A stretch of DNA of 64,000 nucleotides from Nereocystis luetkeana (Eukaryota > Sar > Phaeophyceae > Laminariales > Laminariaceae), in contig JARUPZ010000007.1 of the NCBI GenBank assembly GCA_031213475.1, forward strand, positions 3,033,586 through 3,097,585, in the 5' to 3' direction. The position numbers and the translations under genes were made by a program. The notes below the pieces were generated by a model. It did not search any database, had not been told where the DNA came from, and saw only the letters and a list, made by a program, of their open reading frames with translations. Shown here one piece after another: positions 974-63,693 of this stretch. Numbering within the stretch: the first letter of the stretch is position 1; each line of letters begins with the position of its first letter.

Positions 974-989
974 TACCTGGTACCTGGTA
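974..989. repeat. Double TACCWGGTA scar
   Basis: TACCTGGTACCTGGTA: two copies of the 9-mer share the central TA. A third copy lies at 1007-1015, with further copies at 1174-1182 and 1231-1239. The doubled form is what repeated events at the same TA would leave. Confidence 0.85.
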
Positions 990-1239
990 TGTGCGCTTGT
1001 TTCATGTACCTGGTAAACAGAAGTCCAAACAATAAATCGTAGTGAAAAAAAAGGCGTATTGTTATATAGGAAAGGCACGTCGAAGAACGGATTTTTGTAC
1101 ATTTATTTGCCTTTATTTCAAGACGTAAAAATTTAAGGCGTGCCCAGGGCCCTCACGCGCTCTGGCTTTATCCTACCTGGTATGCCCTTATACCCTGCCT
1201 GGTGCTACCAGAGGGTGGGACTCTATTAAATACCTGGTA

Positions 1240-1344
1240 TTACGGGGGACCATAGTTAATAGGACCAAATATTGTTAGTAGAAATTGTCAAATATATAGG
1301 TGTTTATGTATACCACAGGTCCTATTAACTATGGTCCCCCGTAA
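1240..1344. mobile_element. TA-flanked MITE, copy M1 (105 bp)
   Basis: Starts TTACGGGGGACCATAGTTAA and ends with the inverse, so nearly half of each arm is terminal inverted repeat. It is flanked by TA on both sides. A TA duplication points to the Tc1/mariner superfamily. Copies M1, M2, M3, M7 and M8 are all exactly 105 bp. Confidence 0.9.
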
Positions 1345-1885
1345 TAGTACTTGTGGGCCTTGTCGTGAACCGGTTATTGGCATCGAGCCCGATCAACCCA
1401 CTTCGGCGATCGTGCGTGCGACTGACTGGCGAGAGGCGCGCAACGCGCATGCAAAGATTATACTTTTCGAGAAGAAGAAACCGGAACAAGTCTGATGATA
1501 CCAGGTGCTTTCACTGCTGTACAACAAAACAGGACGGAAAAATATTAACATCTACATACAGCAGCAGCTGCAGTACATCATCTATTTGTCTGCATCTGCA
1601 CCCAAAAAGAGCCAGCAGGGTTTTTTTATTGTTTTTCGTTGAACCTGCGGGCAGTGCATGGGAGCTGTGCGTCATTTCTGCGATACAGGTGCATAGAGCA
1701 GCATAGACTACATACATTACCGGCCCTACCGCTCAGACCAGGCGTTATATACCTGGTGCCTACTCGTCCTGCTGTTGTAGCAAGAGAGAGGCCCACAAGA
1801 CCCTTTCCGGGGCAATAATAATGAGAAATTCGGGAGCGGATTAAATAAAAAAAGCTTTAAAGAACACACCCGGTAAAGATGCGTA

Positions 1886-1901
1886 TACCTGGTACCTGGT
1901 A
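1886..1901. repeat. Second double TACCWGGTA scar
   Basis: TACCTGGTACCTGGTA again, in unrelated flanking sequence. It is an independent instance of two scars sharing one TA. Confidence 0.85.
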
Positions 1902-2002
1902 TGTCACATCACAGCCTGGGCCGATATCCTGACACATCCTGACCCTGCACGACCCGTTGGTTTTACCACTCTTGGTTACTCAGCCAAAGTGGATAGATAC
2001 TA

Positions 2003-2107
2003 TTACTGGGGACCATAGTTAATAGGACCTATGGTATACATAAACACCTATACATTTAACAAGTTTTACTAAGAATATTTGGTCCTATTAACTATGGTCC
2101 CCCGTAA
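2003..2107. mobile_element. TA-flanked MITE, copy M2 (105 bp)
   Basis: Same family as M1, in opposite orientation. The left end carries TTACTGGGG (one change from consensus) and the right end CCCCCGTAA, with TA on both sides. Confidence 0.9.
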
Positions 2108-2171
2108 TATTATTAATAGTATTAATAGTACCAGTATTATGAACAGCAGTGGTTGTAGAGACTATTAACTA

Positions 2172-2300
2172 CTCTGTGACGTAGCTTTGTGACCACAGAA
2201 CTTGTATCTCTTCTATTAATAGGATTAAAGAATCGGCACGGACACTGGTTGTGCTGGATGTCGACGGGTACCAAAGAACGTTTAACGTGAAGAACACACA
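2172..2300. repeat. Unclassified 0.13-kb repeat, copy 1
   Basis: Closely similar to 62148-62275 (shared ATCGGCACGGACACTGGTTG-like core). This copy carries an extra ATTAATA at about 2214-2220 that the other lacks. No coding frame is conserved between the two. Confidence 0.7.
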
Positions 2301-4328
2301 CACACCTGTTACAAAATAGTGTCTTGTTTTTTGGGGTTTTTTCAAGTACTCGTTTTACACGTTATACGATTATTCATAACTTCCCGGACCAGCGGGTAAT
2401 AATAAAGGACCGAAAAAAACTGGAACCCACACCGTCCATCCAGGTCGCAGTCGCGGATATTATAGCACTCACTCGTGGCATCGCCGTGTTCAAGCTGCAT
2501 CAGACGACAGCAGACAGCATGATGACAGCATGACAGCACTGCAGAATATAGGGACGGGTGTAGAATAGGGAGTGCCTCAAGATCGACAAGATCGTCAAGC
2601 TCGGTAAACTCCAACAACTGCAGACTACTATGCACATCATATGGGAAAAAAATAAAGTAAAAACCACTTGTTTGACGGCTTTTTATGCCGTCGGCCGATT
2701 AAACAAGCAATCTGTTCGATCCGAGAGGGGACGCCAACAGGCTTGGCGGTTGGAAGAGTAACGTGCAATGCCCGCGCGCTCATGTCCGCGTGCCATCTAT
2801 GCTGTTGCGTGGGTTACACGCGCAGCATGGGCGCGGCAAACCAACTCATTCAATCCTCTCTGCTGCTGTGGAATGCTCACGAACATAGAGCTTGTTTGTA
2901 CAGCAGTAGTAGTAGTAGAGAAGACACATGTACGAAGTCTCTCGAATGAATGATGATGCAACCCACAACCAACATGCACGTTCACGTTCTTCTGCCCAAC
3001 CGCTTTTTTTGAGGAACACGCTGCAACGACGCGATGCCGAGGCAAACTTTGGGCCGGCTGTGCATGGCACAACCGCCGGGTGCTCGACACGCATGCATGC
3101 TCGAGAGGGTAGAGTTGCACAGACGGTTTCCCCGCGCAGGTCATGATGTCACGAGATAGATGACGAAGCGCGGGAAAGCCCGGAGACGGAAAAGAGACGG
3201 CGTAGCAACTCGTACACCCCGACCTGATACTGCTGCTGTAGCAGTCGTTTTTAATTTTCGAAAACAGAAGAAGCGCGCGCAATACCCGTTCGTCGCGTAT
3301 ACACGTACCGGCTGCCACCGTGCGCTAAATCCAGGCGTGCACTACGTGCGGGAGGCCTTGACGATCGCGTGCTTTCCCTCGAGATTGCCCTGCGCCTAGA
3401 TGCATGAGCCGGTCGCTGCAATATGCTGGTTCGGAGCAACGCGTATGCGTGTGTGTTGGGTCCCACAGAAGAAGACGTAGGTTGAAAAAATTGAACACAG
3501 CAACAACGCACGTGGTTGCACTTGGACGAGCCACAACAAACACGAAGGTGTGTGTGGTGGAACAAGCTCAGAGCCTATCTATCCGCCTACCTTAGAAGGC
3601 GCAGAGGAGACCACAGCAAAGAAAAGGAGCAAGCAGCAAGCCCGTACGTAGAAGATAGAGATATAGATGCAATCCGCCTTCCGAAGGCAAAACGCGGCTG
3701 GCTGCGCTTGACCTGGTTGTGGGGGAGCGTGGGCAAAGGTAAGGTCGTGTAGGTCTGCAAATAATTTAATTTGTACCATGGTATTTCATTTTGGTCCACT
3801 GCTTTACTATGACGATGAACGCTGTAATAAGTACTCGTACTATTTAAATATTTACTATTTAATAACTGCTTGCTGCATGATTTTGTCCGGAAATGTAAGT
3901 AACATATTAAAACAAAAGTAATATCAAAACAAGCATTATGTATCCGGACATAGTTGGTGCTTTTTTTTGCTGAATCGCGTAATATCATCGATCGTAGATG
4001 CTTTTTGCTTTTTACTTGTACTCGTATACTCGTACTCGTATACGTAGCATGCTGGGAAGTTTCTGCTGGTGGTCGAAATCTCGGCTTTTCCGCCCGAAAA
4101 TTGAAAAGTCTAAAGTCTAAAGTCAAACTAAAAAATGGAATTAATTGTTCGGATTTGATATAAATCGCCGGGGACAAAGGATCGAGGGCCGAAGCCTCTC
4201 ATCAAAGGCGAGGATCCGTCTGGTCTGCACGTTTGCCAAAGCAACCAGGAAGAAGTGAATCGCCTTTCTTTGCATGTATGTACGAATATTATGTGGTGCG
4301 ATGAACTACTGCTTGCTGTTGTACACAA
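2301..4328. other. Intergenic stretch, no gene supported
   Basis: Several frames of 60-200 codons exist on both strands, but they overlap each other. The longest (minus strand, 3587-4177) lies in A+T-rich DNA and looks like chance. No splice-consistent exon was recognised. Confidence 0.45.
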
Positions 4329-4416: not shown

Positions 4417-4772
4417 TTAATAGCGTACGTGCATTTATATCGTCTGATTTCATCTATCCATTCCATATCCTTCCCTGCCTGTACTCACTTGCACCCCCAC
4501 CATTTACCGAGATATTTTACCTACTATGTATCTATACGCCACGCTTCGTACTCCGCATCTACCACCTCCATTCCATATTGTTATTAGGGTTGCCATCCGA
4601 CAATGTGCAGCATGAGCTTTCGCGTTGATCAATCAAAACATCCCTGAAAAAAGAAATCTCCGTATGTATAGGAAGGAAACCTATACACCAAGTCTAGCTA
4701 CCTTCTACTACAGTATGTCTACTTCCTTTTATGTTTTATCACGATACTCTGTGTGTTGTCTTTGCTCCCTCC

Positions 4773-4781
4773 TACCTGGTA
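4773..4781. repeat. TACCWGGTA scar inside retrotransposon 3' UTR
   Basis: Lies in the 3' UTR of copy A. The equivalent part of copy B (about 42455-42475) can be aligned without the CCAGGTA, so this 9-mer looks inserted. A second, longer length difference nearby makes this comparison weaker than those at 18052 and 34333. Confidence 0.7.
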
Positions 4782-5110
4782 CATCTTAATATGTATGTAC
4801 TTGTTTTAGCTCTACTCTTGAATCCTAACCCTCATCCAAGCTCCATCCACACGACATCGGTGTGTGCCTGTCATCTCCTCCCCCCCTGTGCTCCTTCTCG
4901 ATTCCTGACGACCCCTAAGCTGGAGTCTAAATAAATCGTGATACCCTCCTCGAAAAGGCGATACGTGTAGTCACCGAGACGATTTGGAGCAGGCGTTCCT
5001 TCACCAATCATGTCCTTCCCATCGACCATCCCTCCCCCCCACTACGCTAGCAGCCAGCTGGTTGATGAACTTACTACCCTCTACCCCGTGACGCCCAAAG
5101 CTTTCCAATG

Positions 5111-5806
5111 CTAAAGTGGAAAGTTTGTGACTCCGTTCGTCAAAGGACACACGTCCCGGACGAGCGTATAGTGCTGGCGCTTGCGCGCCTCGGAGATAGA
5201 GGCAGCTGATCCATCTTGATCGGCACTGCCTCCTCGCAGGTGTATCTGCGCTTGAGGGCCCGCATGGGTGACGTCCAGCAGGATGGACTTCTCCCTATAC
5301 CCCCTATTAGGAGCATCCCGTAGACCTCCTCTCCGGACGACTATGTCCATCCATCCGCAGATTTCGGTCTGCGGTGAACGTTTCGCCGCTTTCCACTTGG
5401 TGTGGAATTCCCAGCCGCTTCTACAATCGGGGCATCGCGTGGACGAGCGGTTGGTGTTGATTTACCACGCCCCTGCTCTGGGACAGATGCGCGCGTGGGG
5501 AGTGTCCACGTCCACTGCATCGCAGCAGGGGCACCTCACTGCCACGTGTTCCTCTATCCCAATGAACCGCCTTCCCATGCCCACAATTTTTGCTGCGGGT
5601 ATGACCCGGAGTGAGTCCGTTGGTCTCGCCCGAAGGCATGCCGTAGCTCCTCCCCCCTGCAGGCTCCTATAGCGAGCCTTGGCGAGGGCTTTGGTTTCGG
5701 CCCCACCCATCGGGTCGCCCGGTCTGGGGGGGCGTGCTGTCTCCGGGAGCTCCTCCAGCGAGGCAGCGTGGGCTGCGTGCCGACGTTGGTTTACCAACTT
5801 GCCCAA
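5111..5806 (-). pseudogene. Zinc knuckle and restriction-like endonuclease, copy A
   Basis: Minus frames at 5806-5462 and 5350-5111 carry the C-terminal part of the retrotransposon protein. The zinc knuckle reads RCPCC...HARIC (C-x2-C-x8-H-x3-C). The nuclease frame holds MDIVVRRGG and LLDVTHAGP, matching the two acidic motifs of the restriction-like endonuclease, then RKRQHY for the Lys/Tyr motif. In R2-type elements this nuclease nicks the target DNA to prime reverse transcription. The frames are out of register with each other and with the RT, so no continuous protein can be made. Confidence 0.85.
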
Positions 5807-5914
5807 CTTATTGTAGGACTTTGCGTGAGTTCGTGGTTATGGCGTCGTGTGCAGCCGGCATGTCGGTCTCTGGGGGTCTTGGGGGCCTGTCCTCCTCTGC
5901 GCCTAGACCCCATT

Positions 5915-7424
5915 CTAACCAAGATTCGGGGACGATGCTCGCCATCGCTTCCTGTGACACCCCCCATGTATCCCTAATCTCCCGCAAGTTGTCTCCCAGC
6001 TGAGCAAAATGCTCGATTCTGGGAGCCCCCTCCTCAACTTATCGCCTAACCGGCCTGCGAGGCCTGCTAGGACCTCCGGCAAGGCCCCCACACTGCTCCC
6101 GATGGATGCCGACATTCTCCTTGCTTCTGTCGACGGCAGCCCGAACCCTCCTGCCCCCATAGAAAGGCGTGCTTGGGCTTGCTGGTAAGGTTTGAGAGTC
6201 AGCCGACTATCCGGGCACCCCTCCTGGAAAAACGGTAGTGCCTCCACCGCTCCCGGTAGTTCGAGGGTTTTCTCGTACGCCCACTGGGCCCCGTTGTCTG
6301 CTCTTTTACATGCTTCGATGGACAACCCCGGCTCCAGAGCCCTTTCAAGGTAACTCATCCGTTGCCCGAGAGATTCGACGGTGATGAGGGCCGTCGCCTG
6401 TTTGTCGGGCATGTTAGCGAGGCAGCGCGCAAGGTGGTCCGCGCCCCCATCCCTCACTACCTCCATTGCTCGTCCCCGCACGTACTCTTCCGTGCCGATC
6501 GGGACACCCACCTCCGTCACCCCTCCTTCGTCTTCAATGCGGACCTCAACGCTTTCAAGGAGCGAAATCTCCTCCATCGTCGGGGCGTGCCCTTTGGGTG
6601 GTAGTGCCACTGTTTTGGCGGCGTCGACCACAATGCCGATGTCATCTAGCTCTCGTCGGAGGAAGGCGAATGCTCTAATCGTGTTGGACGTAATCCCTGT
6701 AAGGCCGCGAGAGGCATCGCCCATGTACGTGAAGGCTTCCACTCCTTCTCTCTCGAATTCCTGCCGGAATCGCTTCAGCCCCGGTCGTAACGCCAGGCAA
6801 AACATTGCTGGTCCCATGGGATCCCCTTGCTGGACACCGCTGGGGCAAGCGATCGTCCTGATATCTCCTGAGTCCATCCAGAAAAACACGTCGGCTGGTC
6901 TTGTGACGCAGCACTTGGCCACTAAAGGCGTGAGCGCTGGCACGCATTTTGGCCACCTCTCCTAGCACCGCCGTCCTTTTTACGGTGTAGAAGGCGTTGG
7001 AGCAGTGCGTGAGAACAAGCCAGTTGCCCGTCCCGTGTAGCATCCTAGCCCTCAATCCCACATGCTTCACTCCTCCGGGTACGGCGACCCCAAACTGCCT
7101 CACCTTTCGGTTTACCTCCTCCAACGGCGGTCGCCATTGTCGCATAGCCCCTGCGGTGATGAGCCTCCTTCAGGTCATACCCACGCAGGCCGGCCGGCAC
7201 TTTTCCTCCAAGGCAATGAAGCTCGACTGCAGGAAGAGCTGCCAGACCTCTGGTGGGAACGCGTCCGGCTCATCAACGATTCTCCGCCAGAAGGCTGCCA
7301 TACCACTTCCGAACCCCTCTCTGCCGATATCGGTTTGAATGATGAATTGTAGATGAGCAAATCGTTGACCGTCGTTTCCGGGGCCTGAGAGGGCGTTCCG
7401 GGAGTTGATAACGTCGAAGAGCAC
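5915..7424 (-). pseudogene. Reverse transcriptase, copy A
   Basis: Minus frames at 7424-7170, 7145-6675 and 6943-5915 together cover the RT and the segment before it. Motif B is intact (QQGDPMGPAMF). Motif A reads THCSNAF, where copy B has TDCSNAF. Motif C reads YMGD (about 6716-6727), where copy B has YMDD. Both metal-binding aspartates are therefore lost. The thumb region (SIEACKRADNGAQWAYE) is still recognisable. Confidence 0.9.
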
Positions 7425-7533
7425 CTCGGAGGCGTACTCATCGTCAGGGCGCCACGTGGAGGCGTTTCCATCTTACACCTCGGTGCCACTCGCTAGCACT
7501 GCGGCCGCCGCCGCGGACACGGCGGCATGGTCT

Positions 7534-9583
7534 TCATGGGGAAACTTGACCATCAAATGTGTTCCACGTTTCCTCGTTCCCCGCTGATCGTGGTTCTCCC
7601 AGAAGGTTGCGTGCTGCCACTTTGACCCCTCCCGCGTGGTGGCACGCCGACGACACTCGTTCAAGTTTCGCCTCTTCCGAAGCTTCCTGGGCGGTATCCC
7701 GTTGTCTCAAGCCCTCTCTCCTGGTGTACGCTATCAGCCGTGGGAGCAGGAGCACTATGTCCCCGCCCTCCACCAGCGCGAACCTCTGGCGCTCCTCTAT
7801 CAAGCCGTCCGGTGAGTGGAACAGGGCTGGCATGAGGTACCACAACTTTATCACCCGCAGGAGCGAGTTCGGTGTCGCCGAGTCCCGGTGCAGCCAGTGC
7901 TCTCCCATAGCGTGGTTGAGGATGTCAAGGGCGTGAACGCCCAAGCGCGCATGTGCTCCTGCCAGCTGCGGCTGTACTGTCTTCCCGGTTGCGAAACGTT
8001 GCCCCAGGTCCTCCAAGGAAACGCCATCGAGTGGTGGCCCTATGCCCAGGCTGTTTAGGTCCCATCCGTACCAAAGCCGCCGGCTGCGTAGGTCCTCGTC
8101 ACCTATGGTCCCCCCTCCCATCCGCGCCGCCCGATTGCGAAGACCCGGGTCAGCTTGGACCGCTGCCTCCAGTGCGTACCGTCTCCGATGCCGGGCTCCG
8201 CAGTCGGCGGCTGGACAGCGGAGTGGTGCCCGTGCCGTACCTCTCGCTAGGGCCTCTATCACACAACGAGCGTGGAGCACGTGGCGCCCTTGCCCACATG
8301 GAAAACGCACCGCTCGGTGCCCTGGCTGACGTGTTTCACCGTAGATCCTGCATGCCCCTCCACCTGTGGTGTTGCCAATGAAGGCCCGGAGGTGCGTCCC
8401 GTTCCCTGTTCTCTGCCCCTGCGACCTGGGAGATCCTCCTGCCGGAGCCTCGCCATTTGGCGTCCGACGCCCCCTGTCGTTCTCTGTTCCTCTCTCTCCA
8501 CTTCTTTGGCTCATTTCTCTCCCTACGCCTCTCTCTCCACCACTAGTTTGCGTTCCTCCGGTTTCCTCTTCTCCTCTACCTTCCCTATACAGCCCCCGAT
8601 CTCCGCTAGTTTTGCTCCTTGTACCCGTCCCCGCCTCTCTCGTCCTCTCCACCCCTCTCGATCCCTCGGTCCGCCTTGCTCTCTCCGCTCCCCGCTCCCT
8701 CCACAGTCCCCCTGCTCCCCTTGTTCTCTCAGCTACTTTCACACCTCCCACTCCCCCCTGTCCCGCCGTTCCCCCCGCTTCTCCTCCCCCCCCCGTCCTT
8801 CCTGCCCCCCTCTCCCTCCCCCGACCTGCTAGCGGGGGCGCCGCCCTATCTCCTCCCGCCGTTTCCCCCGCTCCAGCCGCGCCCTCCATTCCCTCCCCTC
8901 CCCCCGTCCCTCCCACTCTCCCTGCCCCCCCTGTTCCACTTGCTCCCCCCGTTCCCCTGGCTCTCCCCGCCCCCTCCCTCTACCCGTTCCCCTTGCTCCT
9001 TCCGTCATCCTTTCTCCCCGCCCCCCCCCGCCACCCCTGTCCCCCCGCCCCCTTCCTGGCCAGCCAACAAGCGCGCTGCACTATCCCTTCCCCCCGATAC
9101 CCCCTCTCTCGTCGCTCCCCCCTCTCCCTCTGCTCCCCCCGCTCTCCTCACCTCCCCCATTCCACCCGCCCCCCCTTCTCCCCCCACTCCCCCGGCTCCT
9201 CCCGCCACCCCCACCCCCCCCCCGCCCCCCTCGCTTCTTCCGCCCCCCCCCCCCCCCCCCCGGCCTGCTGATGAAGGTGGCATACTACCCCTCTGCCTAG
9301 GGTTTCGCTCCGTACTAGTGTCCGCCCCTCTTCCTGCGCTGGCTGCTCGTGATCTTCCCCCAGATTCCCTCGATCGACCTCTTCTATCCCTTACGACCCC
9401 CCCCCCCCGCACCCCCCCCCCCCGGTTTCTTGGAACTGTCACCTCGGGTGTTGTCGACACGGTCTCTGCCCTTGCTCGGGGCGCTCCGAGCTGTTCCTCT
9501 GGTATGGTATCTCTGTTTCCCTCGTTCTGGTCGTTGTCTGAGGAGCCCGGAGCTTCGTCCTCTTGCTCCGGCTTCCTTCTCAA
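7534..9583 (-). pseudogene. N-terminal region with RING-like zinc finger, copy A
   Basis: Frame 9583-9005 starts MRRKPEQEDEAPGSSDNDQN and becomes Gly/Arg-rich. A frameshift in a C/G run moves it to 8916-7534. Around 8190-8380 comes a zinc-finger-like block: CRIY, CGQGRHVLHARC, then CPAADCGARH. Copy B keeps CGVC where this copy has CRIY, so the ancestral spacing C-x2-C...H-x3-H-x2-C...C-x4-C resembles a RING-type finger. The rest is a conserved domain of unknown role (IGDEDLRSRRLWYGWDLNSL). The antisense reading is a proline-rich frame and is taken to be a shadow. Confidence 0.8.
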
Positions 9584-10141
9584 GAGCGGATCGTTCTCAA
9601 TCGTCGACTCCGTTCCTCTCGGCGGGGGCGCCGCCTGCCCCGGAAAGGGAGGGGGCGCTTATATAGTATGCCCTACGATACAGCAAGCAGTGTTCATGTA
9701 CATTCGCTCATGCAGCGAACCCAAGGGCGAGCACAAAGTAGCAACCACTTGAGTATCACTTTACACTACAAGTACGTCGTACCTGGTACGATATACTGCT
9801 GCGTGCGTTGTGATGTACAGCAGTTAGTGGTATTAATATTAATATTAGTAGTATTATTGCGTACTACCAGGTACGATAATAGTTGATCGGGTGTGCACGC
9901 GATGCTACCGGACGCTATACATTTTTTTGTAGGACGAAGTTTTTTGCAGCAGCGACCAAAATTTCATCATCATAGCTAATTGCTGTACTCCTGGTAGACG
10001 CTACGGTATAGCCGGGGGTAAAAGGTTAACCGATTGGTACCACAGTACCAGGTTGTATTACCCAATCCAGCGTGGATATATATACACTCTCTCGTAGCAC
10101 TTGGATCGGAAGAAACGATATATTATATAGTAGTAGCAATA

Positions 10142-10246
10142 TTACGGGGGGCCATAGTTAATAGGACCCATGGTATACATAACAATCTATATGCTTAAAC
10201 ATGTTTACTAACAATATTCGGTCCTATTAACTATGGTCCCCCGTAA
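10142..10246. mobile_element. TA-flanked MITE, copy M3 (105 bp)
   Basis: Same termini as M1. TA is present on the left, and the right flank reads AA. It is directly followed by an AGT microsatellite. Confidence 0.88.
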
Positions 10247-10247
<1 letters not shown>

Positions 10248-10285
<38 letters not shown>

Positions 10286-10313
10286 CAGTAGTAGTAGTAG
10301 TAGTAGTAGTAGT
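10248..10313. repeat. AGT trinucleotide microsatellite
   Basis: About 20 units of AGT with one AGC interruption. Confidence 0.95.
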
Positions 10314-10413
10314 GGTTGCTGTCAAAAAGTTAAGTGTGTTGCGGTGCGTTCTCGCCAGGATTACCCCGACGACGTATTCTGCCATTCTGTGATATAGTGT
10401 TGGGCTCTGGGAT

Positions 10414-11556
10414 GTGAGGCCTCCAGTTGCTGCTGGGGACTCTCATGCCGGATTACCACCCTGCGTCGAGCATCCGTTTTGGGCCCTGGCCGCGACCATT
10501 ACTGGCGGGCCGGAGCCCCGACGGGGCGTGTTAAGTGTAAGGCGCCCTCCAACCCAAGCTCAGGTGGACCCCGGCCGACGCGCCACCGTCTTTGAGCCTT
10601 CCCCATCTCCCACCAACGGCGACGCGCCGCAATCTAGCTCTGTAGCAGTCCCCGTCTCATCCACGGTCACCCTTAACAAAGCAGCGTCGGAAACCCTCCC
10701 TTCTGCTCTGCCTGTCCATCACGACTCAGCCGAGCACCGAACGGATTTAGGTCCTCAGGAGCCCTCTGCTGTGTCTCATTCAGCCTTGCGTGTCGCCCGG
10801 ACCAACCGTGATCAAGTCTCGGTTGTGCCCGCGGCTCCGCCTCTGCTGCCTTCATCTTCACAGGCGGCTCTGCCGTCCCTTCCCGCGTCGGGGCTCATTT
10901 CGTCTCGGACCCGCCGTCGCCAAGCTGCCGCTGCTGGTAAGCCTACCGTGGATTATGGTTTCGCTCTTTCGCATCCCACTCCACCCACGGCGCGCAAGCC
11001 GCGCCAGCCTCGGACTATCTCCCCTTCAGAGGATTATCCCCGGCCCTCCATCGACCCTGTTCCGACAATGCCGATTCGATCCACCACCGATGCGGTCACA
11101 CCTGCCCCGCCCTTGCTTGGTACCATCCCTCCGGAGGCTCCTCGGCGTGCTAGCACTACAGCCGCTCTCCCCGAGATACCGTCACCGGCAGAGATCGAGT
11201 TCATCGAATCTGTCAAGCGATGCTCACATTCCGATTGGGCGTGGGAACAACGCGCTGAACCGGTTCGTAACGCCGCTATTCGGTATCTTCTTCTCGATAA
11301 TCCCTCCGTCCTCCCTAACGATTTCCTCTTGCACCTGGCGCCTCATAAACGCCCCCCGCTGCTCGAAGTGCGCTCCTTAGCCGATCAAGGACGAGTTTAC
11401 ACAGACGACGACGGCGTCCTCCTGCTCGTACGGAAGTTGACGCCCCCACTCTGGCTTGGTCCGACAAGCCTGGCGGACGTGCCGCCCGCCTTGTGTACGA
11501 CGAATTTACGTCCCGCTGCATATGCGTCCGTGGATTATGCAAGCCTGCCAAGCTAA
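10414..11556 (+). pseudogene. Linker between RNase H and integrase, LTR element G1
   Basis: A 380-codon open frame, rich in Pro, Ser, Thr and Ala for its first 270 residues, with a basic patch (SSRTRRRQAAAAG). Its last 110 residues (EIEFIESVKRCSHSDW, then GRVYTDDDGVLLLVRK) resemble the segment that precedes the integrase zinc finger in Ty3-type polyproteins. The integrase zinc finger follows in another frame from 11456, so a frameshift near 11450-11550 separates them. The start codon has no support beyond being the first ATG. Confidence 0.65.
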
Positions 11557-12530
11557 GGCCTCCCGCCACCTCGGCGTTGCCCGAACGCTATCGATGCTCG
11601 AACGCTGTTATTGGGGGATTGGCGTGAGCATCTGCACGCGATGTTGGCTTCGTCGATATCTCCAATGCCAGGCACGCCAGTCTTCCCGACAGACGGTACG
11701 TTGACACATTCTCTCCCTTCCGTTACCATTCGGCCCTGGTGTCGCGGTGAGCGTCGAAAACTTCGGTCCCCTTCCCGTCACACCTCGGGGCAACTGCTAC
11801 ATTCTACTCTTCACGGATAGATTCTGCCGGCGTGCAGACATGTACGCCGTCTCGGCTGCGGAATACTCGGCTGAAGGCACCGCCGACATCCTGGTCAATC
11901 AATAAGTACATACCTCTTTGGGGGTGTCCGGTCAGCCTCCTCTCCGACAATGGACTGCACTTCTGCTCCAAGCTGTCAAACTGCTGTGTACAAACTTCTG
12001 AGAATGCGAAAAATCGCCATAAGCGCCTGCTATCCCAACGGCAACGGCGGCGTCGAGCGCGTAAACTACACCATGGCTCAGATGCTAGCGATGGTCTGCA
12101 ACGAACGACAGGACGACTGGGACATCCATTTGCCGAACGTGGAATTTGCTTACAACACCATCAGCGCCGCCATCGGGTTGGTTTGGGGTGCACATTAATC
12201 GCCTCCCTCGCCTTCCCCTCACCCGTTTCGAACAACAGTACGCCCGAGGCCATCGAAGCCTCGCCCGCGACCAGCTGGAACACTGCGTCCTCGCCGCCGA
12301 CCGCCAACGGCGTGCGTATGCGCTGGTACGTGAACAACACGCTAGCACGGTCTCTCGTGTGGAGCGCCGTGACTCAGCGCTCTCAGACGAATTTCAAACA
12401 ACGCCCTACCTGCACCATCGGTAACTGGGTATGGATCTACAACACCGCTGCCAACATTCGCCAGGGTGCGAAATATGGCACAGATGCCAAGGCTCTCAAG
12501 GCGAAGCTATCGCTCAACTAAACGAGTCCT
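11456..12530 (+). pseudogene. Integrase (zinc-binding domain and catalytic core), LTR element G1
   Basis: The zinc-binding part reads ASRHLGVARTLSMLERCYWG followed by CTRCWLRRYLQCQ, a decayed H2C2 finger. The DDE core is spread over three frames: LLFTDRF, LLSDNGLHFCSKL, then YPNGNGGVERVNYTMAQML, giving the Asp, Asp and Glu of the active site. Downstream text (FAYNTISAA, RLPRLPLTRFEQQY) continues the core. G3 at 31745 has the same blocks. At least three frameshifts or stops prevent translation. Confidence 0.88.
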
Positions 12531-12639
12531 TTCAAGATACTAGCTGTCGGCTCCGCGCCCTCTGACTCGACGCCGGACGGCCGTCCTTTAGCCGCCGAAT
12601 TGCTATACTCGGACCTTCCTAACGACACGCCGGGCGCCG

Positions 12640-13430
12640 ATGCCCACTGTCGCGCGTGGGCAGGCCGCTAAACCTTGCACCAACCCACATGACACAACAG
12701 ACCTCCCCCGATACCTCCACGCTGGGCTAACGCAATACGTCCTCAACGCCCATACCACCGAACCCCCCCCCTTTCACGTCACCGCCGACGACGTTTCCGT
12801 GCCCATTGAGCGTTTGGAGGTCGGCAATATTTCTAGCCACCGGTCAGTACGAGGCCGGGGCGGAGTCGTCGCCGTTCTCTACGAAGCACACTGGAAAGGC
12901 CTCCTCCGACCGTCTTAGGAGCGTCAATTGGACCTCCTTCACTCTCGTCAACGCATCCCCAACTACTGGGCCGGCGCGCCTCTGCAACTTCGGCGCAGCG
13001 AACAGGGCGTACCGCCGTATGCGCGTGGGTACCGCTCGATGCGAACTCGCCCGCGACCAGGGCACCCGTTTTCTGCCTCCTGGATACAGCTACGTCGACC
13101 AGAGAACGTGGACTCGCCGGTTCGGCGGCACCACCTTGCCTAGCGGCGCTCACTTTTGGTACAAGGGTCAAGCTCATCTTTAGTGGCTCGGGAAACAATT
13201 CCGCCCACACCCCAAACCCTGCACAGTGCGTCCTTCACTTCTTGGACAACCCCGGACCGGTCTAGCTCGAGCTATTTTCTGCTCGGTATACTACGGCTGA
13301 TGGAGCCGTTCACGGCTCATGGTGCCTGCAAGCGCACCAAGGAAGCTCCCTCCTGCGTGGTGTTGTGCATAACGTTGACGAGTCCCGCGGGGCTGAAAAA
13401 GCTGGCTCTGCCGATTTGAATACGCCCTGG
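12640..13430 (+). pseudogene. Chromodomain and C-terminal domain, LTR element G1
   Basis: RLEVGNISSHRSVRGRGG then VVAVLYEAHWKGLLRPS is a chromodomain of the type fused to integrase in chromoviruses, where it steers insertion to marked chromatin. It is followed by AYRRMRVGTARCEL, RFLPPGYSYV and GAHFWYKG. A WLGK block and a FLDNPGP block follow in other frames. These blocks recur in G2, G3 and G4, so they mark a real conserved C-terminal domain. The reading frame is broken by stops and shifts. Confidence 0.8.
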
Positions 13431-13624
13431 TAGCCAATTTTTGTTTTTCGCATGCGTGTTTCCTGTGGTCGCCGGGGCTGGGGTTGGTATCGTGTCACTG
13501 TTCGTGTGGTTTCCTTGTTTTGTTGTGCTGTAGTTGTACTGTTTGATAAAACTTTTTCACGAACTCTCCCGAAGGTTAACCAATCGTCTACCCAATCTAA
13601 GTCTTGAAACGGAAAGGCTAGGTG

Positions 13625-14100
13625 ATTATCTTTGGCGGCGACCCCCGGTTTGCGATTTAAATACGTATACCCCCTCTAGTAAGGCATGGTATTTCCATTT
13701 TTCCGCCAACCATTGTTTGCGATTTGAATATACCTCCTCTAGTGGGGCATGGTATTTCCTTTCTGCGGCCACCCATTGTTTGCGATTTGAATATACCCCC
13801 TCTAGTAGGGCATGGTGTTTCCTTTCTGCGGCCACCCATTGTTTGAGATTCATATATACCCCCTCTATTTCGAGAGATCCTATTAAATAGGACCTACGGT
13901 ATGCACAAAAACCTACATATTTCCATATTTTCACTTAATGTTTGGTCCTATTTACTATGGCCCCCCGTGATAGTAGCGCATGGTATTTCCTTTCTGCGAC
14001 GGAATCCGTCACTCCTCGTATTTTTCTAGAGAGACGTCGATTCACCACCCACTGTTTGCGAACTGACACCGCGTCCTCTCGCAGGGCGCGATGATTATTT
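13625..14100. repeat. 63-bp minisatellite interrupted by a MITE
   Basis: Units start at about 13649, 13716, 13779 and 13842 (TTTGCGATTTGAATATACCC core), with a 63-bp period between the later units. The array resumes in degenerate form after MITE M4 (13973-14100). A 63-bp period keeps frame, so antisense frames show a repeated 21-residue peptide. I read this as a by-product, not a gene. Confidence 0.85.
13870..13970. mobile_element. TA-flanked MITE, copy M4 (degraded)
   Basis: The right arm is clear (GGTCCTATTTACTATGG to CCGTGA). The left arm is eroded to CCTATTAAATAGGACC. It lies inside the 63-bp minisatellite. Confidence 0.75.
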
Positions 14101-17663: not shown

Positions 17664-17796
17664 CATCGTGTTAGAGACTTGTGGGAGAGGGCATCAACCT
17701 GGGTGCTAACGGCATGAAGATCGTATTTCTAACAATGCCACCCGGGTGAAGTATTTTCAAGCTGTGGAGGGGGTTATATATTCCGGATTACCCTGG

Positions 17797-35440: not shown

Positions 35441-35447
35441 ACGATTA

Positions 35448-35558: not shown

Positions 35559-35628
35559 TAAGAAGAAAGTCCTTCGAACCACCAATACGGCACACACACG
35601 TGAGCGACAACGCGGGATCTTTTACGAC

Positions 35629-41269: not shown

Positions 41270-41309
41270 GCTCGGGGGCAGCCTGCGAGAGATCAGGGAC
41301 ACGTGGGGC

Positions 41310-42628: not shown

Positions 42629-42859
<231 letters not shown>

Positions 42860-48300: not shown

Positions 48301-48528
48301 CCTAGACAATTGAGTTAGATCATGGTCGGAAAAAAAAAAAAGAAAAACTTTAGAGTCTGGACACCAAATTGACGGGCGCCCAGTGTATTGGAGCGGACGA
48401 TGTTGATGCTTGCTCACTCGTTGAAGGCAGCGCAGCTTGCAGTAAATTTGCATGGTGGGTTGGGGGCAGATCTCATCACATGTATGTGTGACTTACATAC
48501 CGGTACGAGTATACGCTCGGCGTAAATT
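45318..48528. other. Long intergenic stretch
   Basis: Holds a poly(C) run (46169-46184), TA runs and exact TACCWGGTA motifs at 48132 and 48204. A short frame after a good acceptor at about 46935 (GFHIIYPWLATFEVTILDEE, stop at 47003) is protein-like but unpaired. Otherwise nothing supported. Confidence 0.4.
48132..48140. repeat. TACCWGGTA scar splitting a TA microsatellite
   Basis: AATATATATATATATACCAGGTA then TATATATATATATA-type sequence: the CCAGG core sits in the middle of a TA run, with TA units on both sides. Confidence 0.85.
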
Positions 48529-48601: not shown

Positions 48602-49140
48602 GTAAGGAGTACAATCGGTGTGTCCGGTTCTTTCATTTTCTGCCTCACGAAACTACAGCAACAATAATACCAATTAAATCTCGCGAGAGGTACTTGTGTT
48701 GCTTTATAAGCTACCAGGTACACACCTCAAGCTATATATAGTCGACAGCGGGGCATATTTCAAAGCTGGGGCTCTTTATTTGATTCTGCATCCAGCTTGG
48801 GAGAGGGGCCCGGGATGTCGTTTTCACGTCAGATACTGTTCGTCACAGACAGCCCAGCGGGAAGCGAAACGACACGGCGGTTGTTCCTTCCATTGATAAT
48901 AGTCTTTGAACTGCTGCCTTTTGACTATCAACTAATGGTGACCCCACGATATTTTTCTACAGCTTAGTAGATCCAAGGAAACCTTCTCGAGGAGGTACTC
49001 GCAGGTACCAGATATCATATATCTCGCCTCTTAGGCTCCTCCGAACAATTCGTACGTTCTGGTCCCTCTCCGCATCTACTACTACTGTACGTCTGATCTG
49101 CTTCCGATGTATCTCCGTTCAGCCCTACAGAACAGTTGTA
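48602..49140. other. Intergenic or intronic stretch
   Basis: Exact TACCWGGTA at 48712. No second exon for the candidate at 48529 was recognised. Confidence 0.4.
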
Positions 49141-49234: not shown

Positions 49235-49325
49235 TTAAGATAGCTGTTGATAGTATCAGACTTGACGTATTGCCAAGACATTCTATACGTTCGGGTAAAA
49301 ATCGCCTGATACGTACCGGTACATA

Positions 49326-49535: not shown

Positions 49536-51077
49536 CTGCCGAGTCTCTCGGGGGAAGAAACGAAACAGTGATGCGACCCCCCCCCCCCCCCCCCCCCCCC
49601 CGCGCCCCCGCGTTGGACTACATATTCAATAGCCTACCGGTACATACGGCCAGTAGTACTAAATTGCTGTGCTGTACCGATAGACGTCACGACTACCGCT
49701 CGAAAAATAGGGAACGGCAAAAGGCGGTTGGACGGCTGAACATGACGTATGGTATCGTGTAAATACAATATTATTAATAATAGGAACAGGAACAAACACG
49801 GTTGAGGGATTGCAACCAACCGCGATCAAACCAGTGCTCTCTCTTCATCGCTCCTCACTCTTCTGGTGTTCAGTGTTAACTCCATGTGTATATAGTGTGG
49901 GCTTCCCTCTGCCAGCACCACCACACGCTTCGTAAAAACCCTTGTCCGCGCAGGAAAAAAAAACTCCGGTCCTCGTACGGTGTGAGCCGGTCTTCAAAAT
50001 TCGACTCCTCAGGCCGGCCCGCATCCGCACTTCTGCATGGATTTTTTACTGCTTCCTCGGTATATTACAACTGCTGTGCACGGCCTCGCGCGCGTATCAC
50101 ACCGATCGCCACAATGCAGGCACCATGATCTTCCTAAACCCATTTTTTTTTTTTGTTTATTTGTTCTTTCGTTCAGTCGGGGGCCCATTCAGGCCAACAA
50201 TGAGGCGTTATTTCAAGCACTTTTTTGCAGTGCTCCGTAGCACTCGCCCCTCCTTTGCAGACGCCGCGCGGCATGGCACGCGAAAAAAAAAGTCATCCCA
50301 CCCCCGAGACCTGATTTAAGGCCGAGGCCGGTGCCGAACTCACAAATTACAAGATACGGGCGCCGTTGAAAACAGACGTATAATATGATCAATCGCTGAT
50401 CAATGATGGCCCGAAAAAAACGTCACGCGTGACACCTTGGCACTTATATACGTAGGTGAAGTACGGTGATACTTGAAGTACGGTGACTAGGGGGGGGGGG
50501 GGGGACCAGTGCCGGAGACCTCGTGATGTCGGCCGTCGATGACCGAGAAAATACGCAGGAGAATAGAGCTGATTTGAACGCTACCGGTGGCTCGAAACGC
50601 ACGAGAAACTGAAAATATGAGACCCTTGACCAGGGAAAACAGCTCCGAGGTACCCCGCTCCCACCCCGCCACGCGCGAAGCTAAAACGCCATAACCACAC
50701 AAGCCACCAAGCGGGCGGGATTCGCGCCCTCAGAGAACACAGGAGAATGATCGGCGAGCACCGGCCATGGGGTAGTCGCGAGGCAAGTGGAGTGGGCAAA
50801 AAAAACGAGGCTACTGTTGTAGGACAGAAGCGAAGAGCCCAATAACCCGCATCAAGCCGACGTTCTCTCGCTTTATGTAACCGGCATCAGCGTACGTTGT
50901 GACCCGCATCAACGTACGTTAACCCGCACCAACCGACGTTACAAAAAAAAACGTTTCGCTGCCCCCCCCCACCTCCCTCCTCCTGCTCTTGTTATATTGG
51001 TCCTTCTGCCCTCCCCCCCGCCCCATGCCCGAACCGGGCGTCCCAGCTCCTCTAGAACTATGATGGCACCACTTGGG
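49536..51077. other. Intergenic, homopolymer runs
   Basis: Poly(C) at 49577-49602 and poly(G) at 50490-50503. Frames are short and mixed. TTCGCGCCCTCAGAGA occurs at 50725 and again near 54130, the only shared segment noticed. Confidence 0.4.
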
Positions 51078-52942: not shown

Positions 52943-52988
52943 TTCATTTTCCGAGGCTCCTCGCTTCAAAAGTTGTGTGCTTCCAGTA

Positions 52989-53093
52989 TTACGGGGGACC
53001 ATAGTAAATAGGACCAAATGTTGTTCGTAAAAACAGCGAAATATATAGTTTTTTGTGTCTACCGTAGGTCCTATTTAATATGGTCCCCCGTAA
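52989..53093. mobile_element. TA-flanked MITE, copy M7 (105 bp)
   Basis: TTACGGGGGACCATAGTAAA to CCCCCGTAA with TA on both sides. It is the empty-site reference for the scar in M5. Confidence 0.92.
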
Positions 53094-53344
53094 TAGTATA
53101 CCTCACTTAAAAAAACTGAAAAATTATGATCAGAGAGAAAATAGGTACGCTTCAACCCTAGCAACAATTCCGCGGCCGAGGTGTACGTATGTATGACGAA
53201 TGACGGATGTGGAGCACGATTCAGATTTTGTTCGTAGTCCCTCCATTACAAAAATAAAACTTTATTAGGGCCGAACGATGATGTGAAGCACGATTCAGAT
53301 TTGGTACGTAGCCCCTGCATTACGAAAAAAAAAAGTTTATTAGG

Positions 53345-53425: not shown

Positions 53426-55234
53426 ACCGTTGAGAGGCCCCGTCAGTCATGTTTGCTTACGTACGCACATACCCCTGCATCCCCCTTCTATCGTATATAT
53501 AGCACGCGGCAGAGGGTTCGTATGGTTGACATGACCGCACCTGAAATAAAAACACTACTGCTGTAGTTTTTTTTTTTGGCCGCTACCCCCTTGGACGCCA
53601 AAAAGGGTAAATATAGTTAGCCCCCTAATGCCAGCAGCCCGGGCTGCTTCATGCGGCTATGTGACGCTGAAACATCGTCGCGTGTTTTTGTTACTTGCCC
53701 CCCCCTCTCTGAAATGCGAAAAATGGTTATAAAGAGGAGACGCCGAGGGCGGGAGGCAGGCAAAAGCCCATTTGCTGACGCCATTTCGGTCCAGCCATCG
53801 CTTCGCGTTTTTGTAAGCCGCTATCGCTCGAGCGCAGGTCCGATGCTGCCGCAGTCGATCGGTCGGTACGCCTGGAGCAACTTACGCACCAACCAGCGCG
53901 AGTTGTGAGACGGATCAATGAGCGGCCGTACGTACTGTATATACGCTAGCGTCTCCAAATTCGTTCCCAAAAAAAAGCGCGGTAGTTGGTGAAACTTGTA
54001 CGTAGGACCGGCACGGCCAGACAGAGCCTTTGCACTACGTACTGCATCGCAGCAAAATTATGGCAGCAGTAGTAGTGTCCCACGTGGATAATCCGTTCAA
54101 GATATGATGCCAAAGAGTCCGGAGGAGCTGGTTCGCGCCCTCAGAGAGCGGGCGTGGGAGTGTCCGGGGGCAACTCATCATCGAGCCTGGATGGGATTCG
54201 GACCCCTGCCCCCTGCCCCCGGAACAAAAAAAAAAAAGCTAGACTGGCGGGAGTGCGACGTGGGACGGCACGCCGTGCGGCAAGCGATTCACGTAGCCGC
54301 GCACACAGCTGTGGCGCCCAGCACCCTACCCGAGAAAAAGGTGTACACGGCGAACGACGCGCTACCGCCGTGCCATATTACGGTAGAAGGCGATGGGCCA
54401 CGACACAAAAGCCCATGGGTCTCTGAGGCGCGTGAAAAGCAATTATAACTTTTTTTTTTCGCTGAGCTGAGCTGATACTGAATTATACCACAACCCCGTC
54501 TCGCTTTTTTTTTCCCCCCACGAAAATTCGACCGCACTTCCGCGAACGAAATTGAAGCCACCGCCGTCACCGTTACATGTTGGCACTTAGCGGAGCCACA
54601 TCGCACGCACGCCCGGTGACGCAGGGCTAAAGAGAGAGGCCTCTCTCGTCGCGAGTTCGTACTGCAAAGTGATTGTTGTGCGTATGGCGAGCGGTGCCTT
54701 CCACACGTGCACTCTTAACCAACGCAGTACCGCGGTACCTAGACGGACTGAATATTGAAGCGGCCATAACCATTCCGATCCTTGTTGTCATGTAACATCT
54801 ACCAAATGTCTGTACACTGCGCTATTAATACCAGGTGTATCGCCGTAGTCGTATGATACGCGCTACGTATATACGAAGTATGCTGCCGTACGGCAGAAAG
54901 GGTAGTAGTGGAGGTTTGCAGTTGCCAGTTATTACGAGCATTTTCGCTTGTTTGTGCTCGGTGGTGCCCTTCCCACCTCGCCTCGCTCACGTCCCGCCCG
55001 GTCCCTGGTACCTGGTATTCAATCGTTATGGTCTGCCTCTTCGCCACTCCGACACACGCGCGGCTAGGCATTGCAGTAGTACAGTACGGCCACATAAGGT
55101 GTGATGCCATACGGTTGGACCGGTTGTGAGTACGTACGTAGTTGTTTCTTTTCGATGGTGCTTTAGGTATCCAAGGATATAAAGCAGCTTGCAAAATATC
55201 AACACAAAAAAATATCAGGGCTGTTTACGATTCC
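53426..55234. other. Intergenic, weak frames only
   Basis: The frame at 54104-54448 starts MPKSPEELVRALRERAWECP, which looks coding, but it runs into an A run and loses bias. The rest is unremarkable apart from an exact TACCWGGTA at 55010. Confidence 0.4.
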
Positions 55235-57800: not shown

Positions 57801-58399
57801 TCTTGGGAAGCCCTGTGTGAGGGTGTGTCTTAACCTCCCCCACAGAGCATTGGAACGAACCGAATGGAATAATACTAGCCGCTTGAATAGGTGTTGATTG
57901 GCTATGGGAAACGAATAGATTCAGTGCAGCCCGAGAAAAACAGTATATCTAGGAAGAGGGAGAAGACGTGTTGCACCCCTTTTTCTTGTTTGGGAGGACC
58001 GAACGGCCCAACCGATCGGGAACAAATAGCAGATTATTTGATGTAGACGGACACCACCGAAGATGGACGTGGGCAACAATTTACCGTGGCATGTGCAAAA
58101 GATACCGTTCGTGCCGATTCGGCTGGCGGGGCCCAGGATTCTGCATGGACCCGAACACGTTTTTTTAGATAGGAACGGGACGAATGACCACGAACAGCCT
58201 CGTTCCGTTCCGCTCGTTCCCATACTCTCTGGGGGGGGGTTAAGACACACCCTGATACTTCGATGTTGTTCACGTACAGCGACCGTATTATACGTACACT
58301 CCAGGTGCTGTTGTAACCTAATACTGTACCTGGTATCACGCAAGGTAGGTATTAATAGTACGCAACACACAAAACACCCCTCCGAGAAGATTTCCCAGC

Positions 58400-61339: not shown

Positions 61340-61745
61340 GGTAGACGAAAGTAGGAAGGAGATGGCAGATAGGGTAGCAAGGCACCAGGCCGACTAGGAA
61401 GTAGAACATGACCATACTACTAGTGCCACCAACTGGTGCAGCTGGTTCGAACGTGGTCTTCCCTTGTCTTCTCTTTTTGTTTTGTTTTCTTCTTTCTTGC
61501 GCTGATTCTCCGTGATTTTCATTTTATTTATTTCTCTTCCTTTTCTGATTGATTAGCCGTACTGAAGGAGTCGTGTGGCGTGGTTGGATGACGAACCTGC
61601 TCTGCTCGTTTCGAATTGTCTGACGCCAAGGGGCTGAGCATAGTTGACAAACGCAGGGCGGAGACGGCAGTCTGGGTAGCAAGGTACCAGGCGGATTAGC
61701 AGGGGGAACCTGGCTATACTACTTGTACCACAAACTGCTGCCGCC
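61340..61745. repeat. Two diverged copies of a 0.1-kb segment
   Basis: GGTAGCAAGG...CAGGC...GACTAG and ...CTATACTACTTGT...CACC...CTGG blocks recur at 61360-61450 and 61660-61755. The second is followed by a T-rich tract. Confidence 0.55.
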
Positions 61746-62147
61746 ACCTGGAGGGTGCTTTGGGCTTTGGTCTGCTTGTTATTTTCCCTTTCTTATTTTC
61801 CCTTTCTTATTTTTTCCCTTGGTTCTGTGTCTTACTCTGTTTACAAGCAATGGTGTTTTTGTTATTTTTTCTTTTTTTTCCAGCTCGTTCTTTTTCAAGT
61901 CTTGGCCACCTCGCCTGCGGGGGGGGGGGCACGACAGATTTTTTCTTTTAGTTTTTGCCTTCATTTTTTTTCTTTTTCTCTTTCGGTTTGTCCACTTTGT
62001 TTTTGTTTTCTCTTTGATTGTGTCCTTTCGTTCCTCTATTTAATAAAATGTGTATGTCGTGCCTGTCTTATCTACATGAAGTATGGTGACATGGCATTGC
62101 ATTGCCCACTGCTGTGCTTACTGCATACGTGGCAACGTAGTATCTCT

Positions 62148-62275
62148 GCTGTGGCGTAGCTTTGTGACCACATAACTTGTATCTCTTCTAGGATTGAAGA
62201 TTCGGCACGGACACTGGTTGTGCTGGATGTCGACGGGTAGAAAGAACGGTTTAATATTAATAACACAGACACATT
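62148..62275. repeat. Unclassified 0.13-kb repeat, copy 2
   Basis: Matches 2172-2300 without the ATTAATA insertion of that copy. It ends just before the TIR element at 62292. Confidence 0.7.
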
Positions 62276-62410
62276 GGCATAGGTCTAATAAGGCTGTTTC
62301 CTATGCGGTTCGATTTTGAGCTTCAGATTTGTGTTTTCGATCTCAAAAACTAATGACCCTGCTTATGCAGTCCAAATATGCAAAATCCGACCGGATTTTT
62401 TTCGAGTTGA

Positions 62411-62473
62411 GAATCCGATGACCCCAGTCGTCGGATTTTGCCCCAAAATCCGACGACCTGGGTCATCAGATTT
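62411..62473. repeat. Strong hairpin in the TIR element
   Basis: AATCCGATGACCCCAGTCGT and the following CGGATTTTG pair with CAAAATCCGACGACCTGGGT and CATCAGATT around a 3-4 base loop, with few mismatches. Confidence 0.85.
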
Positions 62474-62920
62474 TCAAATCGAAAAATTACATGCTCTCTA
62501 AATTCAAGATGTTATCCATGACAGCAAACAGAAGCAGCAGAACGATCGATGAGTTGGATGGTGACAGAGAGGTATAGCGACGTTGCTTCGCGCCCGACGC
62601 TCGGGCGGCGGGCGGTCCGTCCCTCCGTGGCCAGACTACAGTCGCCAGGCGCGGGCTCGGACCTAGAGACCAAGAAAAGTGCCCCAAAATCCGACGACCT
62701 GGGTCATCAGATTTTCAAATCGAAAAATGGCATGCTCTCTAAATTCAAGATGTTATCCATGACAGCAAACAGAAGCAGCAGAACGATCGATGAGTTGGAT
62801 GGTGACAGAGAGGTATAGCGACGTTGCTTCGCGCCCGACGCTCGGGCGGCAGGCGGTCTGTCCCTCCGTAGCCAGACTACAGTCGCCAGGCGCGGGCTCG
62901 GACCTAGAGACCAAGAAAAG
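62440..62920. repeat. 241-bp tandem duplication
   Basis: Units 62440-62680 and 62681-62920, both starting GCCCCAAAATCCGACGACCT, differ at only a few positions. The period is not a multiple of three. Such high identity implies a recent event. Confidence 0.95.
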
Positions 62921-63201
62921 CGCACTCGGCACGTACCTCTCCGTGGATACGTACGAGTACAAGAGCAGCAGTCAGTCACAAAATGGGACACAAAAATCCA
63001 AAACAGGTTCGCTCAAGCGCACTCGCCACGTCTCTTTGCCGCCAGACCAGAGGCAGTCAGCCTTGGCTCGCACGCTTGGGTCCTACGCGCAGGGCAGCGC
63101 ACCCAGCGCGTCTCTTCGCGGCGCCAAATCACCAAAATAGCAGTTGGTCTCGGCGTTTGCTCGAATCTCTACACACCTAATAACTCTGATTTTTCCGCCT
63201 A

Positions 63202-63306
63202 TTACGGGGGACCATAGTTAATAGGACCAAATATTGTTAGTAAAAATGGTTAAATATATTGGTTTTTACGTATACGATAGGTCCTATTAACTATGTTCCC
63301 CCGTAA
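63202..63306. mobile_element. TA-flanked MITE, copy M8 (105 bp)
   Basis: TTACGGGGGACCATAGTTAA to CCCCCGTAA, TA on both sides, inserted inside the TIR element near its right end. It is therefore younger than that element. Confidence 0.92.
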
Positions 63307-63693
63307 TAGGAAGACTGTTTCGATTTGCCAACTTCATATCTGAAAATGCGATCGGGTCAAAATCTGAAGCTCAAAAATCGAACCGCATAGGAAACGGCCT
63401 ACAGTACTTTTAAAAACTATTTTTTTTAATGAATTTTCTTCAAATCCTACCTTCGGTCTTCGGTGTTTATTTTGGGGAAGGGAAGAAACCAAAAAAACAC
63501 TTTCACAAACAGCAGTCACGGACGGTACTATTGCTGTAGCTGCGAGTGTCCCTCTGTTACAGGCGGTACACAGTATCTATCATATACCAGGTATGTACGA
63601 ATACATGCCAACAGTAGTGCTACAGGTACTCGTAGCTATTAATAGTACCTGGTAGTTTCGAATAGCGACAGATCGTTACATTTCTCTTCCAGA

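Follow-up and report, generated by a model that had tools for sequence, protein, structure and literature searches.

The stretch of the Nereocystis luetkeana genome analysed here (the window) spans 64 kb at G000:C7:3033586-3097585 of its own assembly, G000, which comprises 465,085,209 bases. It contains a family of miniature inverted-repeat transposable elements (MITEs), two copies of a long interspersed nuclear element (LINE), a transfer RNA-short interspersed nuclear element (tRNA-SINE)-like repeat and, throughout, the palindromic 9-mer TACCWGGTA in its two orientations, TACCAGGTA and TACCTGGTA (Table 1). The 9-mer occurs 27 times, against a mean of 0.41 and a maximum of 3 in 100 dinucleotide shuffles, which confirms the over-representation reported by the first-pass annotation; 26 of its 27 start coordinates were correct, and the copy it placed at 55010 starts at 55009. 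The excess extends to the whole assembly, where 182,395 copies were counted compared with 1,744 of the reversed pattern. This corresponds to about one copy per 2.5 kb, and as the density in the window is one per 2.4 kb, the window is typical of the genome. The negative control, a 3.8-Mb bacterial metagenome-assembled genome (MAG) under which contig L001 (JALZUP010000195.1) is filed, holds 20 copies and 13 of the reversed pattern, 8 of the 20 being located on two algal-looking contigs. The motif is real, genome-wide and out of the ordinary. Among the full-text literature matches listed for the letters of the 9-mer, a search with subscription papers and preprints outside its scope, none was about such a repeat; the motif is likewise unreported among the matches listed for footprints and brown algae, where one very broad query was dominated by kelp papers.

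The sites are clustered along the window, 12 of the 26 gaps between neighbours measuring at most 300 bp when 3.7 would be expected for random TAs. Clusters such as those at 974-1893 could speak for an ordinary repeat consensus; however, the flanks of the window sites appear mutually unrelated, and for 24 of the 27 sites the window contains no second copy of a surrounding repeat. The remaining three are 4773 (LINE), 18052 (tRNA-SINE-like repeat) and 34333 (MITE). As to the proposal that most copies lie in noncoding DNA, in a 314-kb sample 27 of 107 sites fall inside mechanically defined open reading frames (ORFs) of at least 150 amino acids, which hold 33% of all TA dinucleotides, so that avoidance of ORFs is at most mild.

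Table 1. Copies of the 9-mer, candidate minor joint forms and repeats located in the window.
Feature	Position	Strand	Basis and remarks
Two nested or tandem motifs, TACCTGGTACCTGGTA	974-989 (974-982, 981-989)		Exact match
TACCTGGTA	1007-1015		Exact match
TACCTGGTA	1174-1182		Exact match
TACCTGGTA	1231-1239		Exact match and context; abuts MITE end directly
Two nested or tandem motifs	1886-1901 (1886-1894, 1893-1901)		Exact match
TACCTGGTA	4773-4781		Exact match and alignment; within LINE copy 4576-8439, alignment to paralogue 42639-38832 ambiguous here
TACCTGGTA	9780-9788		Exact match
TACCAGGTA	9865-9873		Exact match
TACCTGGTA	18052-18060		Match and alignment; exact 7-bp gain at TA relative to paralogue 34833-35148 (-) and to L019
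TACCAGGTA	26262-26270		Exact match
TACCTGGTA	34333-34341		Match and alignment; within MITE copy, exact 7-bp gain at TA relative to other copies
TACCAGGTA	35735-35743		Exact match
TACCAGGTA	35957-35965		Exact match
TACCTGGTA	36104-36112		Exact match and context; TA-rich surroundings
TACCTGGTA	36198-36206		Exact match
TACCAGGTA	43224-43232		Exact match
TACCAGGTA	43551-43559		Exact match
TACCAGGTA	43667-43675		Exact match
TACCAGGTA	48132-48140		Exact match and context; breaks up (TA)n microsatellite
TACCAGGTA	48204-48212		Exact match
TACCAGGTA	48712-48720		Exact match
TACCTGGTA	55009-55017		Exact match
TACCTGGTA	58327-58335		Exact match
TACCAGGTA	63585-63593		Exact match
TACCTGGTA	63646-63654		Exact match
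Candidate minor joint form TACCATGGTA	3774-3783		Window scan; form enriched genome-wide
Candidate minor joint form TACCGGTA	36059-36066		Window scan
Candidate minor joint form TACCGGTA	36968-36975		Window scan
Candidate minor joint form TACCGGTA	48498-48505		Window scan
Candidate minor joint form TACCGGTA	49314-49321		Window scan
Candidate minor joint form TACCGGTA	49635-49642		Window scan
MITE family of about 110 bp	34271-34391, 52986-53097, 1235-1349, 1998-2109, 63199-63309, 10140-10251, 35446-35560, 13865-13972		Ends TA-TTACGGGGGACCATAG...
LINE copy	4576-8439	-	Reverse transcriptase nearest to brown algae; the two copies 82% alike
LINE copy	38832-42639	+	Reverse transcriptase nearest to brown algae
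tRNA-SINE-like repeat	17785-18112 and 34817-35435		Tandem and inverted arms; contains GGATTACCCTGGGCTGGGTAATCGATCGAT

The motif is a gain, since repeat copies that carry it are 7 bp longer, at a TA, than those that do not. In the MITE family the copy carrying site 34333 is exactly 7 bp longer at TA in the alignment, and the motif is absent from all seven other window copies, six of which lack those columns; the seventh shows an expansion of TA by 6 bp at this place. An exact 7-bp difference likewise separates the copies of the tRNA-SINE-like repeat at site 18052, whereas at site 4773 of the LINE the filled and empty alignments are ambiguous. The comparison was extended to a further 250 kb of the same genome and to contig L001 by joining the flanks of each motif and scoring its relatives as filled or empty, after dropping units at most 100 bp from the end of a stretch or with low-complexity flanks. 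A relative spanning the site was available for 18 of the 88 single-motif units queried. Of these, 7 were scored as cleanly empty, 6 as empty but gapped close by, 4 as only filled and 1 as unclear. None of the six double-motif units had such a relative. The seven clean units span six repeat families, and one of them is the gain visible within L001. Because the MITE is a palindrome in its own right, part of its alignments pair one arm with the other; the forward empty alignments of the copy at L020:6298 show a 1-base gap beside the site and are less than clean, while those of 34333 are clean. The motif sits within one and the same short run of TA in both copies and is oppositely oriented in the two, and on this sequence comparison the two gains were probably separate events. 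The 7-bp gain put forward by the first-pass annotation is thus borne out, and its counter-hypothesis, that the 9-mer belongs to ancestral repeat consensus sequences, disagrees with the MITE family and retains the 4 of 18 units that are common to their relatives.

The surroundings of the motif carry a signature of their own. Merging the window sites into 25 units gives 50 half-flanks, and in 46 of them the seventh base outward from the TA (+7) is A or T. This position was picked by inspection and was therefore retested on 20 new 10-kb stretches; in these independent 200 kb, A or T was found in 112 of 128 half-flanks (56% expected, p 2e-14). The pooled outward consensus is Y, R, W, A, N, T, W, with little signal past +7. 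TA occupies +6 and +7 in 53 of 178 half-flanks, compared with 7%, and the commonest first outward trimer is TAT (21 of 178). The MITE, which also inserts at TA, has a different preference, with A or T at +7 in only 27 of its 50 ends in 314 kb and G, T, A outward beside the TA, and hence the signature belongs to the maker of the motif. The target is symmetric, as is shown by DDE transposases; palindromic, AT-rich surroundings of the TA are described for ZB, Sleeping Beauty (SB) and Bari in the available portion of PMC7913693.

The central and outer A/T positions lie 11 bp apart, about one helical turn, a spacing that, together with the clustering, would suit a functional palindromic site of 23 bp, W-N6-TACCWGGTA-N6-W, bound by a transcription or chromatin factor, selected and perhaps spread by mobile DNA. 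Against such a site stand the differences between paralogues, which have or lack the 7-bp unit at TA, and the number of about 180,000 sites, some of them within repeats of different kinds, and we consider it very unlikely.

The motif is also found nested in itself, with 8 pairs among the first 100 genome sites listed and 7 more in the 314-kb sample. Six of these 15 doubles are of mixed orientation, which excludes tandem duplication as their source. Doubles such as TACCTGGTACCAGGTA would be later insertions at the TA of an existing scar, and nesting is expected because that TA has T at +7. The doubles bear as well on a mechanism implying no element, in which an enzyme would cut the TA in W-N6-TA-N6-W, CC or CCA would be added to each 3′ end and the ends would be joined in one step. 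The TAs of the motif itself would then be good targets, and the motif would breed near existing copies, in agreement with the clustering and with the eight pairs among the first 100 sites; however, nesting also follows from target preference. To our knowledge, with no search aimed at the question, no enzyme adds such bases at chromosomal TA sites, and this one-step insertion seems quite unlikely.

Joints of other lengths are informative on how the motif arose. Two pairs of forms of opposite polarity were first spotted in the 314-kb sample (9 vs 0 and 2 vs 0) and then counted genome-wide: TACCAGGGTA occurs 11,422 times (control 409) and TACCTGGGTA 1,578 times, TACCATGGTA 3,002 times (control 623) and TACCTAGGTA 175 times (control 182). 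CTAG is scarcer than CATG here (Markov expectation 0.07 vs 0.28 in 264 kb), a rarity that explains part, not all, of the contrast between TACCATGGTA and TACCTAGGTA. A third form, TACCGGTA, is in excess (12 vs 2.4-3.5 expected in 264 kb), and the unit at L011:3827 has a 94% relative without exactly 6 bp. The target signature recurs partly in the minor forms, +7 being A or T in 18 of 24 half-flanks of TACCGGTA, 13 of 18 of TACCAGGGTA and 4 of 4 of TACCATGGTA; for TACCSGGTA the figure is 7 of 14. TACCAGGGTA, the 6-bp joint form, is also repeated every 528 bp at G000:C1:1305185-1308362 as a tandem satellite, and some of its 11,422 counts are therefore not independent.

Ends of sequence 5′-CCAGG-3′ annealed one base out of register would give CCAGGG or its complement, never CCTGGG, and 5′-CCA ends filled and joined would give CCATGG, never CCTAGG. 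The fill-in of two 5-nt ends would produce TACCAGGCCTGGTA (comparison form TACCTGGCCAGGTA), and an excess of CCATGG alone would fit ends of 3 nt. Alternatively, the element could end in CCAGGG and be cut one base further in, which would also yield the 6-bp joint form. The observed polarity would be expected from the joining of 5′-CCA(GG) ends, not from slippage or a symmetric binding site, in which polar forms of another length have no reason. It fits equally the addition of CCA to both ends in one step, from which TACCAGGGTA is not obvious. Slippage would yield TACCAGGGTA and TACCTGGGTA equally often and is rejected for this reason. Together, the polarity of this pair and the empty sites argue against slippage or a repeat consensus as a general explanation, and we regard either as extremely improbable.

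Taking into account: (i) the 7-bp gain at TA; (ii) the target signature; (iii) the genome-wide number of copies, and (iv) the polarity of the minor forms, we propose that the motif probably represents the excision scars of a TA-targeting, Tc1/mariner-like transposon of which about five bases are retained. In the model, a cut-and-paste DNA transposon of the Tc1/mariner type would enter a TA, duplicating it, at a symmetric target with A or T at +7 on each side and a TA-TAT-like core. Upon exit, staggered cuts would leave the first five or so bases of each end, 5′-CCAGG, as 3′ overhangs on both flanks. The overhangs would anneal by means of four G:C pairs flanking an A:A mismatch, and mismatch repair and sealing would give rise to TA-CC[A/T]GG-TA, whereas trimmed or out-of-register joining would produce TACCAGGGTA, TACCATGGTA and TACCGGTA. 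We infer here a transposase as the breaking agent, the length of the overhangs, the strand chemistry and a parent terminus TA-CCAGG.... The first-pass annotation had taken the A/T ambiguity at the centre of the motif as the mark of mismatch repair, an argument that carries no weight: TACCAGGTA is the reverse complement of TACCTGGTA, and both forms would result from any insertion that occurs in the two orientations. The polarity of the minor forms takes its place.

The motif behaves like the excision footprints of Tc1/mariner elements. The SB footprint is TACWGTA, and the kelp motif resembles SB and ZB footprints in the TA target, duplicated and retained, in the palindromic remnant between the two TAs, in the AT-rich palindromic core of the target (TAT trimer, symmetric A/T at +7) and in having one dominant joint accompanied by minor variants. 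As for a joint built from the two termini of an element, with misjoins of the same polarity, the polarity of the minor forms agrees, and the parent ends were not seen in the sampled DNA. The motif differs from those footprints in its sharp demand for A or T at +7, in its approximately 180,000 identical copies in one genome and in its length, as the dominant form has 5 bp between the TAs and Tc1/mariner footprints are stated as 2-4 bp in the available portion of PMC7913693. The motif is therefore a candidate member of this class, since its length falls outside that range and no parent with matching ends was found in 264-314 kb. Possible sources of excisions are known in brown algae: a 2025 study of Ectocarpus mobile DNA counts about 12,000 Mariner-Tc1 copies, mostly non-autonomous (PMC12477816, in the part available), and MITEs of the TcMar-N1_Ec32 type described there could supply them. 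Those MITEs are whole elements, unlike the motif, and the words footprint, excision and palindrom have 0 occurrences in the main text of that article as available. A different likeness is offered by HIP1, the highly iterated palindrome of cyanobacteria, also short and of very high genomic density; the motif, by contrast, belongs to a eukaryotic genome, is a unit of 7 bp inserted at TA and has a target signature.

Several observations, besides the length, weigh against excision scars. The four units with relatives filled at the site have been mentioned; TACCGGTA units with relatives are filled only in 3 of 5 cases, all three in one L023 array. TACCTGGGTA exceeds its own control (362) about 4-fold, which implies that some longer forms arise by another route. 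Copies with one mismatch are, as the first-pass annotation had noticed, in excess (24 vs 11.7 expected in the window, 113 vs 59 in 264 kb); as a class, however, they lack the target signature, with A or T at +7 in 125 of 226 half-flanks (264 kb). For this reason an estimate of 5-6% divergence from their excess was dropped, and by rough arithmetic decayed scars are at most about 21 of the 113, beside 95 exact copies. So few decayed copies imply scars that are either recent, with divergence of about 2% or less, or maintained, and this is why the one-step insertion and the selected binding site, for which the scarcity of decayed copies also speaks, were kept under consideration. If some 180,000 excisions took place, the scarcity of mutated copies implies a very high rate; this strains the excision reading and does not break it. 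Among the one-mismatch copies in 264 kb, the outer C-to-T and G-to-A variants TATCAGGTA (11 of 14) and TACCAGATA (12 of 12) are above expectation with the clearest +7 signature and perhaps represent variant element ends, inner C/G transitions are at or below expectation, and splice donors may account for some of the TACCAGGTG-like excess.

The first-pass annotation had suggested looking for TA-flanked elements ending in CCAGG.../...CCTGG, and no TA-CCAGG-ended element with inverted repeats was found in 264 kb or 314 kb, a sample amounting to 0.07% of the genome, from which an element of a few thousand copies could escape. The searches covered TACC/GGTA end pairs with inverted repeats, common sequence after TACC with unrelated upstream sequence, extensions of TACCWGG and, de novo in 314 kb, TA-flanked inverted repeats. 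The better candidates inspected belonged to MITE arms, to the tRNA-SINE-like repeat or to local arrays, or did not rise above chance. One rejected end pair, 10046-13432 (10 of 14 end bases alike), encloses an apparent fragment of a long terminal repeat (LTR) retrotransposon: the ORF at 11751-12521 (+) reads in translation as an LTR-retrotransposon integrase core, and Pfam gave no match for it or for the ORF at 10393. Lack of a parent favours the insertion of 7 bp in one step. In the wider sense, which comprises a self-propagating or one-step 7-bp insertion through added CCA(GG) with no resident element, or elements excised so fully that only scars remain, this alternative is unlikely.

Excision scars or not, the motif may occur in a second alga. 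Contig L001, of 7.7 kb, carries a brown-alga-type LINE (62%) and 5 exact motifs, and L027, from the same assembly, has 3 exact motifs in 6 kb, a GC content of 51.6% and no long intact ORF. Both would be brown-algal contaminants of the bacterial MAG, L027 more conjecturally, and if so the motif is not confined to one species. Of the 16 half-flanks on these contigs, 11 have A or T at +7; the number is too small for the signature to emerge, and this too counts against the excision reading.

The remaining elements of the window are of ordinary kinds. The reverse transcriptase of the element bearing RVT_1, which we label a LINE, has named relatives in Laminaria digitata (76 and 85% identity), Scytosiphon (63%), Ectocarpus (44-51%) and Undaria, which places the organism among the brown algae and, on these matches, close to kelps. 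Ten window ORFs were compared with Pfam; RVT_1 was found on two, one below the curated cut-off, and two read-through 15-kb frames had no Pfam match. The LINE protein had no match in the PDB, and in IMG/VR 5 and 16 stretches matched the pattern for the protein and its alignment, none encoding a relative; the MITE core had 0 matches there. Rfam gave no match in the window at gathering scores.

If the motif does consist of excision scars, a single genome would document some 180,000 excisions by one type of element. We know of no footprint count as large, and none comparable was found among the literature matches listed. Transposition rates, target choice and the fidelity of end joining could then be read from a natural brown-algal genome. 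If the excision reading is wrong, the motif would reveal a different mechanism by which short DNA is inserted at TA.

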